A DNA stretch of 64,000 nt from the NCBI GenBank assembly GCA_001560915.1, contig CP014214.1, positions 1,426,001-1,490,000 of the forward strand. Direction: 5' to 3'. Under the pieces are notes generated by a model. The model was not told the origin of the DNA. It did not search any database and saw nothing but the letters and a program-made list of their open reading frames with translations. The stretch comes from a methanogenic archaeon ISO4-H5 (GTDB lineage: Archaea > Thermoplasmatota > Thermoplasmata > Methanomassiliicoccales > Methanomethylophilaceae). The position numbers and the translations under genes were made by a program. Positions 27,531 through 32,881 of this stretch are shown here, piece by piece (the first letter of the stretch is position 1; each line of letters starts with the position of its first letter).

Positions 27531-27968
27531 TCAATCCGCCACATCGATCATCATCTCTCCGCAGAACGTCATGGGGATGCCTGCGTCACTGCGGACCATC
27601 CTGACCAGACGGTCCTTCATGTACTGGGCGGTCTTCAGGCACACCCCGCATCTGGTGGCACACCTGTGGATGGATATGCCCTTCAGATACAGGTGGCAGA
27701 AGGTCTTCCACCTCTCCTTACTGACATGTGAATAGGGTACCGCGTTACCGATGAATCCCCTGCCGCACGCCTTACACGCATATCTCTGGGTGCCGGTGGA
27801 TGAACGGCCCTTCCTGATAATCTCCTCCGAATCGCAAAACGGACATGTGTTGAACTCTGAATCCATCATGCGGTCCAGACGTTCGATGGTCTGTTCGTAT
27901 TCGGATTCTGGGATCGTCCTCAGATAACCGCAATCGAACGTTTCGTAGAAACCGTGCTTCCCTTTCAT
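27531..27968 (-). CDS. Zinc-ribbon/HTH protein, N-terminal part of an IS1/IS1595-type transposase
   Basis: A 145-residue protein with a treble zinc ribbon (CPFCDSEEIIRKG, YACKACGRGF) and a helix-turn-helix segment (ISIHRCATRCGVCLKTAQYMKDR). This is the DNA-binding front half of IS1/IS1595 transposases. The frame stops right after FCGEMMIDVAD, where the catalytic domain with its first Asp would start. It is either a decayed insertion sequence or a domesticated DNA-binding protein. The ATG at 27968 is preceded on the minus strand by TCTTTTTATTTGG, a plausible TATA box. Confidence 0.6.
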   Translation of the reverse strand: MKGKHGFYETFDCGYLRTIPESEYEQTIERLDRMMDSEFNTCPFCDSEEIIRKGRSSTGTQRYACKACGRGFIGNAVPYSHVSKERWKTFCHLYLKGISIHRCATRCGVCLKTAQYMKDRLVRMVRSDAGIPMTFCGEMMIDVAD

Positions 27969-28147
27969 ACCCTCCCACTCTCGTCTTGGAAACCTATCTG
28001 ATTCCCCAAATAAAAAGAATGTTAGACTTTGTGTTCCTGAGAACGAATTTCCCAAATTTGCATGGAATCGAAAGGTACTGGAATGTACAACAACGGACTT
28101 ATTATTACCCACAGATGGAACACCATGAACAACATGGAGGATGTGGA

Positions 28148-28249
28148 ATGAGCGGAGGTCGTTTCGACTATATGGATCGCAGATTATACGAATGGTCATT
28201 ACAAGTGCGGATGGACGGCAACCCTTTCCCTGAAAGATGGGATGAATAG
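28148..28249 (+). pseudogene. Remnant of a phage/plasmid-type MSGGxFDY protein
   Basis: A 33-codon frame beginning MSGGRFDYMDRRLYEW and ending in TAG. Many phage and plasmid genomes encode short proteins starting MSGG-(H/S/R)-FDY; those are normally 60-120 residues, so this looks truncated. It follows the second copy of an 18-bp island repeat. It is the only gene-like unit seen here that ends with TAG. The following 28250-28441 has no recognisable gene. Confidence 0.4.
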
Positions 28250-28441
28250 CCTGACGTTCGCGTACAGGCACAAAACAGATGGGATCTAGTGCTAAAACTG
28301 GTTTCATCTAAGGTTCATACACTGTTTATCTAAGGGATTGTCATTTTTCGATGAAAAAGAAACTAAGGGATTGCCTATAGCCGTGCAAAACTAATGTTAT
28401 CCAGACATAGGTGGATGGTGTTCAGTTTAAGGATTGTTTCC

Positions 28442-29875
28442 TCATCTCAGGGCCGGCATCTCATCCTTGTACAGCAGCTCCCGCTGACCGAAAAGCAGGA
28501 TACCGTTTTCTTCAGCGTACTCCCTGAGCTCGTCGGTGAATCCCGATGCAGAGAACAGAGCGTAACGCACATTGTATCCGCCTTTGAGCGATCTAACCCT
28601 CGAGACCAGCAGGTTCAGGGCACCGAACCCCATCGGGGGCCCCGTGAATTTGCATTCCCCGAACAGGTCTATGCGAGCGTTGCCTTGCCTTATGGTGGCG
28701 ACTACGTCTATGTCCGCATATTCGGTGATGACCTTCCCCTCAGGGCCCTTCATCAATCTCCCTTCAGCATCTCTCTGGGGTACGGGGCCCCACCATTGGC
28801 CCACGGCGGTGCATGGGTAGTTGGACGATATCAGATCGATGCAATACAGCTCGAATGCCTTCCCGAGATGAGTGGATATTAACTGCGACATGGCATCGTA
28901 GGGTTCATCCGCTTTCATAAGGGATACGGAACGATACCGATCGGCAATCGAGGACCAAAAAGATATGGCCAGATCCGATATGACGTATCTGCTGCTTTTC
29001 GTCGGTGTCGGAAGATGCTCCATCTTGGATATCACCCTCATGGACACCAGATCCTTGATGCTTTCGTTCACGGAACTGTCCGACAGTCCGGTATAGTTCG
29101 CGATTTCCCCGAATGATTCATTTCCCGCAGATATGGCATCCAATACGGCCATGGCATTCGAACTGGATGCCCCCAGCTCGGTCTGAAGGTCATAGACGAT
29201 CTCATCGCCTATGAGCCCGTTCCTGTCCAGTACGTACCTGTTGATTACGGTGCGATAATCATTATCCCCCACCATGTCATGATATGCCGTAATCCCATCA
29301 AGCGTAAGGTACAGCTTCAGCATATCCGTGTCGCTGATGCTCGGATGAAACTTTCTGGCCTCGGTGATGCTCATGGGCGACATATCGATCTTGAAGGCGA
29401 ATCTCCCATACAGCGGGCTGTCCTTCTTCAGCATCCCGTCCGACATCATCTTCACGGAGGACCCGCACACGATGACCATGGAATCGGTACTGTTCCTTAT
29501 CCAGTCGACGAAATGCTGCAGTTCGGATGCGGCGTAAGGATTGTTGTGTATGAGGTACGGAAGTTCGTCGAATATGATGATCGTTTTCCCCTGGGAACAC
29601 ACCCCTTTGACAGATTCTAGGACGGAACGGAGGTCCCGGACGTCTGGCTTGATGCCGAATGCCTCCTCCAGCTTATCGGCTATCCGGCGTACGTTACGGA
29701 CCTCCGGACCTCTTACGAGATCGATGTACAAACTGCGTCTGCCTTCAATGAATTTCAGGATCGTACTCGTCTTCCCGATCCTGCGGCGGCCGTAGACCAT
29801 GCAGGTCTTGACCCTCTCTTCCGCGAAGATACGTCCCAGCAATCCCAATTCAGACTCTCTGCCTATGAATTCCAT
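28442..29875 (-). CDS. Archaeal ATPase (MNS clade) with DUF234 nuclease-like domain
   Basis: A 477-residue protein. The N-terminal AAA/STAND-type ATPase starts FIGRESELGLL with Walker A YGRRRIGKTS (residues about 28-37) and Walker B IIIFDELPYL. A winged-helix region follows (NESFGEIANYTGLSDSSV). The C-terminal DUF234 domain has the restriction-endonuclease-like arrangement E-Y-A-D-I-D-V-V and GECKFT. Such archaeal ATPases are abundant on mobile islands and their function is poorly known. A palindromic operator lies just upstream, suggesting self-regulation through the winged helix. Confidence 0.85.
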   Translation of the reverse strand: MEFIGRESELGLLGRIFAEERVKTCMVYGRRRIGKTSTILKFIEGRRSLYIDLVRGPEVRNVRRIADKLEEAFGIKPDVRDLRSVLESVKGVCSQGKTIIIFDELPYLIHNNPYAASELQHFVDWIRNSTDSMVIVCGSSVKMMSDGMLKKDSPLYGRFAFKIDMSPMSITEARKFHPSISDTDMLKLYLTLDGITAYHDMVGDNDYRTVINRYVLDRNGLIGDEIVYDLQTELGASSSNAMAVLDAISAGNESFGEIANYTGLSDSSVNESIKDLVSMRVISKMEHLPTPTKSSRYVISDLAISFWSSIADRYRSVSLMKADEPYDAMSQLISTHLGKAFELYCIDLISSNYPCTAVGQWWGPVPQRDAEGRLMKGPEGKVITEYADIDVVATIRQGNARIDLFGECKFTGPPMGFGALNLLVSRVRSLKGGYNVRYALFSASGFTDELREYAEENGILLFGQRELLYKDEMPALR

Positions 29876-29907
29876 CGTAATACCATACGCACCAGGATTA
29901 CATAAAT

Positions 29908-29944
29908 ATTACTACAATCGTTTGTAGTAATCTAATATTACTAC
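29908..29944. promoter_or_regulatory. Palindromic operator upstream of the DUF234 ATPase gene
   Basis: ATTACTACAA (29908-29917) and TTGTAGTAAT (29922-29931) form a perfect 10-bp inverted repeat with spacer TCGT. A third half-site, AATATTACTAC, recurs directly at 29934-29944 (first copy 29905-29915). It lies 33 bp upstream of the ATPase start codon, where a repressor would block the promoter. Confidence 0.65.
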
Positions 29945-30107
29945 TATCCTTTGAAGTTATATTCGCCATAACTGGAAGATTGAAGTTACGCCGTGAATCA
30001 CATCGTTTACTAAGTGGCAGCATTTTGCCGGCCACATTTTGATTGACCCTCGATGTTCGATCCGATGATCTTCAGGACTATGGCCTCCAGTGTCATACCT
30101 ATGGCAA

Positions 30108-30260
30108 GCGATGTCTCACACCTTTGAGGGCATTGTGTCTGTCTGTATACACCATTATGCAAATAAGAGACTTTGAGCAGGGTTGACTCGGATTATTCCG
30201 TATAATGCCGGTATACTGCGGTATACAGCCTGTTTTCGATGAAATGAGCGGACCCGCCGG
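30108..30260. repeat. Island repeat copy A (tRNA-Arg 3'-end duplication, att-like)
   Basis: The strongest part, 30185-30260, matches 32744-32819 with three mismatches in 76 bp; weaker similarity extends left to about 30108. It includes the last 12-13 bp of the tRNA-Arg acceptor/T-stem (GCGGACCCGCCGG) and then diverges, exactly as expected for a displaced attachment site. It contains three 10-bp-phased GGTATAC-like units. The rest of 29945-30398 holds no gene I can support. Confidence 0.8.
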
Positions 30261-30398
30261 AACTCGCATATCGAATAGCCAGCAATCAAATTTCGAAATC
30301 AATAGCGCCTTTGAAGGGGTTATTGAAAAATCAATAACTGAAAGCGAACAACTTCACTTCGAACAATCTTTAAGTATTACAGTTGTCATACACTAAAT

Positions 30399-30620
30399 AT
30401 GGTCTACTCAATCAGATTTTCGGAAGATGAACAGGCAGCCATAGAGCAGTATGCATTACTGTACGGAATGAAAATATCAGAAGTTATCAGGAAAGCAACA
30501 ATGGAGATGATTGAGGACGAAATGGACATACAGGCCTTCAAAGAATCGAAAGAAAGATTCGAAAAGAACCCTGTCACTTATTCCCATGAGGATGTCGGAA
30601 AGGAATTGGGATTCCTTTGA
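30399..30620 (+). CDS. relB: RelB-type antitoxin (DUF6290-like ribbon-helix-helix)
   Basis: A 73-residue antitoxin. The N-terminal RHH (YSIRFSEDEQAAIEQYALLY, MKISEVIRKATMEMIEDEMD) would dimerise and bind the operator; the C-terminal acidic/aromatic tail (SKERFEKNPVTYSHEDVGKE) would wrap the toxin. It is preceded by an AT-rich promoter (TTTAAGTATTACAG). The stop codon overlaps the toxin start. It is the front gene of a type II toxin-antitoxin cassette lying between island repeats A and B. Confidence 0.88.
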   Translation: MVYSIRFSEDEQAAIEQYALLYGMKISEVIRKATMEMIEDEMDIQAFKESKERFEKNPVTYSHEDVGKELGFL

Positions 30621-30895
30621 GCTATCACGTTGAATACAGCGATGATGCGAAGAAATCGCTGTCTAAGATGAAGAAAAAGGATCCGATGGAGGCACTTAGA
30701 ATCTATAATTGGATCGGGAAGAATCTTGTAGATTGCGATGACCCCCGTAAAACAGGTAAGGCATTGACTGGCCAATACAAGGGATCGTGGAGATACAGAG
30801 TGGGAGATTACAGAATATTGGCCGAGATTCATGATGATGTACTGGTCATACTCCTAATCGATATTGGACATCGCAGTACTGTTTATGACAAATGA
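30617..30895 (+). CDS. relE: RelE/ParE-family toxin
   Basis: A 92-residue toxin of the RelE fold. Signature pieces are the N-terminal YHVEYSDDAKKSLSKM, the middle ALTGQYKGSWRYRVGDYRIL, and the terminal VILLIDIGHRSTVYDK. RelE toxins cleave mRNA at the ribosomal A site. The start codon is TTG, overlapping the antitoxin TGA (TTGA), a tight coupling that keeps toxin below antitoxin. The stop codon lies about 10 bp from the GTATAC units of repeat copy B. Confidence 0.9.
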   Translation: MSYHVEYSDDAKKSLSKMKKKDPMEALRIYNWIGKNLVDCDDPRKTGKALTGQYKGSWRYRVGDYRILAEIHDDVLVILLIDIGHRSTVYDK

Positions 30896-30915
30896 TTACA
30901 ATCTCGTATACTCGA

Positions 30916-30967
30916 GTATACTGCGGTATACAGCCTGTTTTCGATTAAATGAGCGGCCCCGCCGGGA
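30916..30967. repeat. Island repeat copy B (short att-like copy)
   Basis: 52 bp aligned to 32768-32819 plus flank with four mismatches, again ending in the tRNA 3' sequence (GAGCGGCCCCGCCGGGA) before diverging. To its left GTATAC occurs at 30905 and 30915, so three GTATAC units are spaced 10 bp. It lies between the RelBE cassette and the AlbA-type regulator gene. Confidence 0.75.
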
Positions 30968-31001
30968 ACCGCTTAAGGCAATGCCAGACATCAGAAATCA
31001 G

Positions 31002-31044
31002 GGTAACTTATACCCCATATACCGGCATAAGTTCGGTAACTTAT
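31002..31044. repeat. Direct repeat GGTAACTTAT
   Basis: GGTAACTTAT occurs at 31002-31011 and 31035-31044 in the leader of the AlbA-type regulator; ATAAGT before the second copy also makes an inverted pair with ACTTAT. A possible binding site for a regulator. Confidence 0.4.
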
Positions 31045-31106
31045 CCGAGATTGGATGATGATTGGTCACGGCCTGCCTAGACAGATCAGAATCGTATCCT
31101 CAATTA

Positions 31107-31171
31107 GTATATCAATATGGAATCAATTTGTATATCAATATGGAATCATTAAGTATATCAATATGGAATCA
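31107..31171 (+). repeat. Three 23-bp tandem repeats with TATA-like core
   Basis: The 19-bp core GTATATCAATATGGAATCA recurs exactly at 31107, 31130 and 31153 with four variable bases between. Each unit contains a TATA-like TATATC and an ATG. Because 23 is not a multiple of three, the ATGs of the units fall in three different frames. The last TATA is about 35 bp before the ATG at 31193 that I assign as the gene start. Confidence 0.85.
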
Positions 31172-31192
31172 ATTACTCTACTGGCGAGTATT

Positions 31193-32491
31193 ATGGCGAA
31201 CATCGGAAGAGAGGACGAAACACAGGAATTCAAAGAGAGCACGGCAGAGATGGACGAAGCGATGGAAGCGATCTGCGCCATGCTCAACAATTCCGGCAAA
31301 GCCCATGTGTTCTTCGGAGTCAGAGATGACGGGACTGTAATCGGCCAGATGATTGGAAAGAACACCCTGAAGGACATCTCCAAGAGCGTTCGTGAATCCA
31401 TCGAACCCCCCGTGATTGCCAAAATCAAAGTGCTGGATACATCGGACGGAAAGGAGTACATCTCGGTGGAAACCCAGGGTACCGCCCGTCCGTACTCGGT
31501 AAAAGGGAACATACTGGTCAGAACCGGTGCGGAGAACCGCAAGGCTCCCCTGTCGGAGCTCAAACGTATGATACTGAGCTCGGGCGATAATCTTCTGGAC
31601 ACCTCCTCCTACAATCAGGAACTGACATTCAAGGAACTCTGTACCCTGCTGAGGGACAATGGTTTCGACGTTCAGGACGACGAACGCCTGAGGAAGAGCT
31701 TCGGTCTGCTGAACAGCGACGGAAGACTGAACTTTCAGGCACAGCTCCTGTCCGATCAGAACGATATCCCCCTGTCGGTGGCCATGTTCCGCGGGACGGA
31801 CAGATCGGACATGACCTTCAGGAAGGATTACGGCGGACGCTCCCTGCTGACTGAGGTCAATCAGGTCCTCGACTTCGTACAGGCTCAGAACGAAATATCC
31901 GTCCAGGTCGGTCCGGGAAGCAGGAAGGAAAGAGAACTCTTCGACGGGAACGCGTTCAGGGAGGCATGGATCAATGCCTGCGTACACAACAACTGGATCG
32001 GCCACATCGCACCGACCGTCCACATATTCGACGACCGTATGGAGATCATATCCTACGGAAGCATCCCGTACTGGCTGTCGCTGGACGATTTCTTCTCCGG
32101 GAAGAGTCTCCCGGTGAATGACGCCCTGATGAGGGTCTTTGTACAGACAAGGCTGACAGAGCACACGGGGCACGGCATCCCGGTGATAACCTCAGCATAC
32201 GGGAAGGAAGCGTTCGATCTGACAAACGGAACGGTTACCGTCACGCTCAGATTCCACGGACTGCGTTCCGCGGCATCGAGACACCCTGAGGAATACCCGC
32301 TGACGGAAAGGGAAATGAGCGTACTGGATGCGATAAGGTCCAATCCGAACGCCAAGCTGAACGACGTCGCATACATGAGCGGCGTGAGCAGGGCGTATGT
32401 AGGCAAGATCGTGGTCAAACTGAAGGATAAGGGCCTGATCGAACGCATCGGGAACCAACGTACAGGATACTGGAAGGTCCGTCAGGCCTGA
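31193..32491 (+). CDS. Schlafen/AlbA_2-domain putative transcriptional regulator
   Basis: A 432-residue protein of the COG2865 type. The N-terminal AlbA_2/Schlafen-like domain starts at ETQEFKES with NNSGKAHVFFGVRDDG. A middle ATPase-like HATPase_c_4 segment has FREAWINACVHNNW and RLTEHTGHGIPVI. The C-terminal winged helix is at LTEREMSVLDAIRSNPNAKLNDVAY. These proteins sit on mobile islands and are thought to be regulators or defence factors. The start at 31193 places the family N-terminus right after the tandem promoter repeats; starts inside the repeats are possible and would add MESITLLASI. Confidence 0.85.
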   Translation: MANIGREDETQEFKESTAEMDEAMEAICAMLNNSGKAHVFFGVRDDGTVIGQMIGKNTLKDISKSVRESIEPPVIAKIKVLDTSDGKEYISVETQGTARPYSVKGNILVRTGAENRKAPLSELKRMILSSGDNLLDTSSYNQELTFKELCTLLRDNGFDVQDDERLRKSFGLLNSDGRLNFQAQLLSDQNDIPLSVAMFRGTDRSDMTFRKDYGGRSLLTEVNQVLDFVQAQNEISVQVGPGSRKERELFDGNAFREAWINACVHNNWIGHIAPTVHIFDDRMEIISYGSIPYWLSLDDFFSGKSLPVNDALMRVFVQTRLTEHTGHGIPVITSAYGKEAFDLTNGTVTVTLRFHGLRSAASRHPEEYPLTEREMSVLDAIRSNPNAKLNDVAYMSGVSRAYVGKIVVKLKDKGLIERIGNQRTGYWKVRQA

Positions 32492-32654
32492 AAGGGGGAA
32501 CAGTTCAGCCCAACAGTCTCAGCATACCACCGAACGCGGCGGACGATGCAACCTGAATCGAATCCGCACCGCACAGCATCCCCGCGCCTCCATGAAGATG
32601 ATGTGATGGAGCGTAATGAAACCTCGTCGTTCCTCCGATTTCTGTACCTTGCCA

Positions 32655-32819
32655 ATCGATGCTTCACGCCTTTGAAGGCCAGGCGTCGCGCCTATTCCTC
32701 AGTATACTCTATTATGTAAAATAGAGACTGTTCGAGAAGGGCCGACTCGGATTATTCCGTATATTGCCGGTATACTGCGGTATACAGCCTGTTTTCAATG
32801 TAATGAGCGGACCCGCCGG
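32655..32819. repeat. Island repeat copy C, continuous with the tRNA-Arg gene
   Basis: This is the full copy: its right end (32808-32819) is the 3' end of the tRNA-Arg gene, and the rest is the downstream flank of the tRNA on its own strand. The core 32744-32819 matches copy A with three mismatches; similarity continues left to about 32655. It contains three units of the GGTATACTGC type at 10-bp spacing. Confidence 0.8.
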
Positions 32820-32881
32820 GATTCGAACCCGGGTCTGGGGCTCCGGAGGCCTCTATGCTATCCAAGCTATACTACGGGACC
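32808..32881 (-). tRNA. tRNA-Arg (CCG), with stem mismatches
   Basis: Minus strand: acceptor GGTCCCG with CGGGTCC, anticodon loop CTCCGGA (CCG), T arm CCGGG-TTCGAAT-CCCGG, discriminator G. Three mismatches are seen: T3-T70 in the acceptor, A12-C23 in the D stem and A28-C42 in the anticodon stem. The fold and loops are otherwise normal. It could be a functional but unusual tRNA, or a copy degrading after being used as integration target. It is the anchor of the repeat series A-B-C. Confidence 0.8.

Follow-up and report, generated by a model that had tools for sequence, protein, structure and literature searches.

Tandem genomic units bounded by repeats of a tRNA-like 3' end have been described for the ssrA islands of Dehalococcoides, some of which carry no integration module and are thought to be mobilised by the recombinase of others (PMC3146451). 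Casposases, for their part, leave duplications of 14-15 bp, and the target in A. boonei overlaps a tRNA-Pro gene (PMC6614799). On archaeal tRNA cassettes that lack an integrase, the papers searched offered nothing closer than cis-mobilisable elements (CIMEs), the ssrA islands and the archaeal integrons. The subject here is an array of short cassettes at the tRNA-Arg(CCG) gene of the methanogenic archaeon ISO4-H5, lying in a window, that is the whole stretch of DNA analysed, of 64,000 nucleotides (contig CP014214.1, positions 1,426,001 to 1,490,000 of the forward strand; the positions below are those of the window unless a contig or locus is named). The passages searched in the ISO4-H5 genome paper list integrases and one excising 32-kb element and do not mention such arrays (PMC5011839). 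The units of the array are best explained as non-autonomous integrative cassettes, which would be moved in trans by a tyrosine integrase (probability roughly 0.8).

The array extends from the leftward-facing 3' end of the minus-strand tRNA-Arg(CCG), as placed by ARAGORN. A repeat search of the window gave three direct repeats, A (30172-30266), B (about 30906-30967) and C (32731-32825), all in the orientation of the tRNA and each holding 13-15 nt of its 3' end (TCCCGGCGGGTCCGC, with one mismatch in B). Copy C is 91% identical to A over 95 nt and 92% identical to B over 52 nt (30916-30967). The initial annotation of this DNA had described these three copies, with a RelBE-type pair between A and B and an AlbA/Schlafen-type regulator with promoter repeats between B and C, and domain matches agree with both assignments. 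The repeats and cassettes stood as described, but the array proved longer than had been claimed, as a third cassette lies to the left of A, which has a full right arm. The features, read from the tRNA outwards, are the following.

32807 to 32881, minus strand: tRNA-Arg(CCG), the anchor and putative attB (ARAGORN and sequence)
32699 to 32821, minus strand: site C, a 15-nt core (the last 15 nt of the tRNA, 32807-32821) with right arm P' reaching to about 32699
30954 to 32806, minus strand: cassette 1, the whole unit from site C to site B, 1853 bp
31166 to 32491, plus strand: cargo 1, a SLFN_AlbA_2 / HATPase_c_4 / winged-helix protein, whose open reading frame (ORF) could start further upstream
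31100 to 31174, plus strand: three 23-bp promoter repeats (TATATCAATATGGAATCA) ahead of cargo 1
30968 to 31031, minus strand: left arm P of cassette 1, the palindrome CTTATGCCGGTATATGGGGTATAAG and then GATGTCTGGC 35 nt before the core end (R1/R2 models)
30900 to 30967, minus strand: site B, the core at 30953-30967 with right arm P' of cassette 2
30249 to 30952, minus strand: cassette 2, the whole unit from site B to site A, 704 bp
30399 to 30620, plus strand: cargo 2a, a DUF6290 antitoxin
30617 to 30895, plus strand: cargo 2b, a toxin of the ParE/RelE superfamily
30261 to 30296, minus strand: left arm P of cassette 2, degenerate (GATTGCTGGC 35 nt from the core end)
30121 to 30260, minus strand: site A, the core at 30248-30260 with the full-length right arm P' of the third cassette
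28313 to 30247, minus strand: cassette 3, truncated, its own core and P arm lost
28442 to 29875, minus strand: cargo 3, an ATPase_2/DUF234 protein (PADLOC candidate PDC-S27)
27531 to 28307, minus strand: transposase-like zinc-ribbon ORF at the cut end of cassette 3, assigned by eye and not by a database match

Comparison with relatives was made mainly on 147 genomes of the order, most of the relatives being metagenome-assembled genomes (MAGs); genomes are cited below by G, contigs by C and loci by L numbers. Between genera, full units are 94-96% identical as against 67-75% for the flanking chromosome. For example, end-to-end alignments of whole cassettes gave 96.3% over 1471 nt (L060_cd/L062_ab; flanks 73.0%), 93.9% over 1647 nt (L058_bc/L065_ab; flanks 67.1%) and 94.9% over 1853 nt (L059_bc/L060_ab; flanks 74.6%), and for the pair G048/G054, which belongs to one genus, the values were 98.0% and 91.0%. 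Identity drops outside the cores, except where other arms come next. G121 (L104) has a counterpart of the AlbA part of window cassette 1, with 92% identity over 1368 nt.

The same cassettes recur in several genomes: AAA-457 in G027, G046, G048 and G054, AAA-395 in G048, G116, G119 and G121, AAA-429 in G005, G027 and G119, AAA-393 in G046 and G119, and the RelBE pair in G005, G048, G054 and G116, with a version of about 77% identity in G122. Their order is shuffled: the AAA-395 cassette (a 395-aa ATPase) takes the tRNA-proximal place in G116, but at least two others precede it in G048 and G119. An uninserted site could also be recognised, where the tRNA of G122 is directly followed by a 146-nt stretch (91.8%) that an 889-bp HEPN cassette displaces in G119, the homology beginning within the core. 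Meanwhile, in G012 (L068) a relE remnant of window cassette 2 lies directly at tRNA-Arg, without cassette 1, as expected if cassette 1 was inserted later, in between. The arrays read hold one to four cassettes each, so that the variable number and content predicted by the initial annotation are found between copies of the same repeat, gene content not being identical in relatives. Duplicated tRNA terminators are ruled out as the source of the repeats, because these bound units that move. The cassettes are almost certainly mobile.

Serial insertion of integrase-bearing islands that lost their integrase and most of their genes, leaving no cassette movement today, is an unlikely account of these units, although several loci show decay. 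Site A in the window, L064b and L109 are degenerate; in L064b and several further sites the degeneracy is too great to interpret. The insertion sequence-like ORF truncates cassette 3, whose end at 28313-28421 corresponds to the tail of a cassette preserved intact in G027 (L058, 3825-3934), and a remnant of an integrase of the subfamily discussed below persists in the decayed tRNA-Arg array of G002. The transposase-like ORF itself has partial matches in L065. What decay does not account for is that short units keep the same two ends intact across genera, at 94-96% identity against the 67-75% background, since independent decay of larger islands is not expected to yield identical units.

Each cassette ends in a conserved P arm, consisting of a palindrome (CTTATRCCCGTATACGGGGTATAAG) and then GATTTCTGATGTCTGGC, followed by the core. 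In about 30 of 34 sites, TCTGG precedes the core end by 35-36 nt. Compensatory changes are seen in the palindrome (12 both-sided cells, a result reached in 0 of 500 shuffles). In the window, the right arm P' of site C carries GTATAC repeats at a spacing of 10-11 nt. The ends are asymmetric, P being strongly conserved and P' variable in type. The conserved P arm, the core and P' together indicate that the sites are complete attP-like sites (P-core-P'), more than fragments of a tRNA. In cassettes of the RelBE type, a T-arm-like sequence (GGTTCGAATCC) that resembles the 3' half of another tRNA is seen in the right arm, 10-15 nt past the core (L065 9341, L062 8977, L064 642, L060 11878 and L100 9288/10746), and it is present near the integrase L155 as well.

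The length and position of the core match the duplications of casposases, and a Cas1-type integrase or another transposase that duplicates a 15-nt target at tRNA 3' ends could be considered, all the more as the distal-site cores in G119, G037 and G052 have the own variant of the host tRNA. Nevertheless, terminal inverted repeats were not found in the cassette ends compared, the exception being a type-3 P' with an inverted arm, and the elements end instead in an asymmetric P arm and variable P' arms. Moreover, the acceptor stem of tRNA-Arg(CCG) has today a U3.U70 mismatch, and the core of site B differs from the tRNA only by G for T at tRNA position 70. This core keeps a G70 able to pair with U3 and fits the 5' strand of the tRNA better than the present U70 does, as with a foreign core. 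Such a pattern, though of one nucleotide only, fits an incoming core that would have replaced the tRNA end and displaced the old one. A casposon-like origin is, on this evidence, very improbable.

The search for further copies of the repeat, proposed in the initial annotation, led to a second locus. When copy C was used as BLAST query against the whole genome, A and B were recovered at E 3e-32 and 1e-15, and the matches ranked next were those of the tRNA-Ser(GCT) locus (E 5e-4 and 0.02). There, the same genome has a second array of this kind (L011:8701-12466), in which the site with its GTATAC arm at the tRNA is repeated at a distance of 3.65 kb; the interval encodes an AAA_14/DUF4143 ATPase, a RelB-like antitoxin and a HATPase_c_4 protein. 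Past the distal site of L011 lies a RelB gene, and in G006 (L066) the same gene and Fic directly adjoin the tRNA.

If cassettes were moved by homologous recombination between the repeats and no site-specific recombinase took part, the repeats, at 75-150 bp, would provide arms of sufficient length, and several intergenomic matches comprise only the end segment (about 175 bp for window cassette 1 against others). This mechanism leaves unexplained how a cassette was first inserted at a tRNA 3' end, the conserved TCTGG spacing and the presence at both tRNA-Ser and tRNA-Arg, and is regarded as quite improbable.

The pattern GTATACN4GTATAC was seen in no more than 10 of 101 genomes, in most cases where tRNA-Arg(CCG) or tRNA-Ser(GCT) has its 3' end. 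A search at the DNA level recovered the repeat from 12 of the 147 order genomes, and a model of P arm plus core had matches in 17 of the 147, all of one family and from five genera, mostly rumen or gut MAGs. In IMG/VR, the exact P-core motif and the P' motif had no match, and no viral carrier was found there. Among the contigs of GTDB r220, the motif is present only in nine stretches, from Methanomethylophilaceae/Thermoplasmata MAGs. Most arrays are at tRNA-Arg(CCG), some at other loci, and the cassettes measure 0.7-2.6 kb.

As the initial annotation had stated for the array in the window, the arrays are free of an integrase: no intact one (PF00589) occurs in any of them, the sole match being the remnant in the decayed G002 locus, and PF00589 fragments at array ends, as in SSV-type split integrases, were not found. 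It had also predicted a recombinase encoded elsewhere, and PF00589 matches in 18 genomes do lie outside the arrays, mostly adjoining other tRNAs. In G012, a 19-kb element has tRNA-Ser(GCT) on one side and, on the other, 16 nt identical to the 3' end of that tRNA; the 344-aa integrase of the element (L166) ends about 85 nt from the distal core, and the arm ATCTGGCCACAGTG, 37 nt before the core end, resembles the arm of the Ser cassette (CTGGCCACAGG) at nearly equal distance. G127 has an intact integrase (L210), 42% identical to that of G012, about 450 bp from tRNA-Arg(CCG). The remnant in the tRNA-Arg region of G002 is a third related integrase, beside a P-arm-like sequence. Both tRNA genes targeted by the cassettes thus have an integrase of the one subfamily.

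The arm motif TCTGGM is common to the tRNA sites of this subfamily and to the cassettes. At 17 tRNAs that have an integrase of the subfamily nearby, KCCAGAY, the reverse form of the motif, was counted 14 times against 2.4 expected (p 1e-6, the loci not being fully independent); in 8 of these 17 it is placed 10-12 nt beyond the end of the tRNA. Downstream of the integrase stops, GTCTGGC was counted 8 times against 1.1 expected, partly in paralogs. A wider P-arm model gave weak matches at tRNA-Pro ends, beside integrases in G117 and G129. Judged from these shared motifs and positions, a tyrosine integrase probably acts in trans on the cassettes, and it is somewhat more likely than not that this particular subfamily provides it. 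A GTATAC pair near the integrase of L012, in the ISO4-H5 genome, was discarded as a link, being probably due to chance, as the paralogous integrase locus L020 has no such pair. The two loci (L012:2766-4015 and L020:10321-11569) share a 1.25 kb block of integrase and att-like sequence, 97% identical, in two otherwise unrelated ISO4-H5 proviruses.

In the favoured model, each unit consists of one gene or operon with left arm P, a tRNA-identical core and right arm P', and has no integrase gene, the enzyme being presumably supplied by a provirus or integrative element of the one subfamily, either resident in the same cell or entering it. The core of a circular cassette would recombine by strand exchange with the 3' end of tRNA-Arg(CCG) or tRNA-Ser(GCT), leaving a usable tRNA. 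Older cassettes would be pushed outward at each insertion and the array would therefore grow at its tRNA-proximal end, and neighbouring cores could recombine with each other, releasing cassettes as circles.

Several observations weigh against this model. Neither an excised circle nor recombination has been observed, and homologous recombination between the repeats could shuffle cassettes too. There are several P' types, by which the exact attP requirement is not fixed. In G054, G121 and G125, which have arrays or sites, an integrase was undetected, G121 and G125 being incomplete genomes. The likeness to the P arm near integrases is short, with full-arm matches that are weak (E 0.02-0.07; E-values of models built in this analysis are rough) and depend mainly on TCTGGM and its spacing. 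Finally, the arrays of G046 (C1:509488-514926), G119 (C8:1515-6586) and G002 (C3:9288-10746) are not at an intact tRNA-Arg(CCG), which is a sign of some off-target integration or rearrangement. In the G046 array, the first core comes after a SIMPL-domain-like gene; a clean empty site for this array was not used, its relatives being too distant (65-75%). In G002 (L185:13000-16500), an array of clustered regularly interspaced short palindromic repeats (CRISPR) follows the decayed tRNA-Arg array and a RelBE cassette.

The cargo has its own upstream region and mixed orientation relative to the tRNA. By Pfam, it includes many AAA_14+DUF4143 ATPases, ATPase_2/DUF234, DUF6290+ParE, Fic, AlbA_2/HATPase_c_4, HEPN and one S15 peptidase. 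PADLOC labels the AAA_14/DUF4143 proteins as PDC-S01 (E 1e-98 to 1e-137), Fic as PDC-S04 and the ATPase_2 protein of the window as PDC-S27, all of them candidates for defence and not proven systems. The arrays may benefit the host as a reservoir of defence and addiction functions. If the favoured model is true, single toxin-antitoxin and candidate defence operons pass between genera of gut methanogens, organisms that are hard to manipulate, by an integron-like cassette logic made from ordinary tRNA-targeting integrases. The site sequences and candidate integrases named here are possible integration tools for Methanomethylophilaceae.

Compared with known systems, the cassettes fit best the integrase-less, att-flanked class (CIME-like): att repeats derived from the tRNA 3' end flank them, and they contain no integrase. 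The presumed mobilisation in trans has indirect support from the tRNA targets and the arm motif shared with one integrase subfamily. CIMEs and ssrA islands likewise form tandem units bounded by tRNA-like 3'-end repeats, some without a recombinase; however, the ssrA islands use a serine recombinase module, of which many have their own copy, and the ISO4-H5-type cassettes differ by being minimal single-operon units with both arms conserved, shared between genera and linked to tyrosine integrases. Tyrosine-integrase proviruses of archaea that target tRNA genes also have their attB at the tRNA 3' end, a 15-16 nt core, arm motifs and an integrase beside the site, but an autonomous element of the G012 type spans about 19 kb with its integrase, against 0.7-2.6 kb without one. 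Casposons share the 14-15 nt repeat at a tRNA 3' end and differ by terminal inverted repeats, which the cassettes lack; no Cas1- or casposase-like product was seen among the annotated cassette genes, although no search aimed at Cas1 was made.

The initial annotation had called the system integron-like, which holds for the cassette logic, but the system is not an integron. As in integrons and clusters of attC sites lacking integron-integrases (CALINs), including the integrons of archaea (PMC9668308), short cassettes of one gene or operon each have one site, share one anchor, are exchanged between genomes and would be served by a trans-capable recombinase. In contrast to integrons, IntI was not found here, the best of ten integrases from array-bearing or related genomes scoring 63.5, far below the 265 required by TIGR02249. 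A tRNA gene serves as anchor in place of attI, the site is two-armed and of double-strand type, and the cargo genes have mixed orientations and upstream regions of their own. What is new with respect to all these systems is that the cassettes are uniformly minimal and conserved in their arms, that they are exchanged between genera of archaea, and that they have two tRNA targets in common with one integrase subfamily. Slightly more likely than not, the arrays belong to a dedicated archaeal system of cassette exchange, evolved independently of integrons, in which a pool of minimal defence and addiction cassettes with a standard two-armed site would be served in trans, at tRNA-Arg(CCG) and tRNA-Ser(GCT), by a widespread subfamily of tyrosine integrases.

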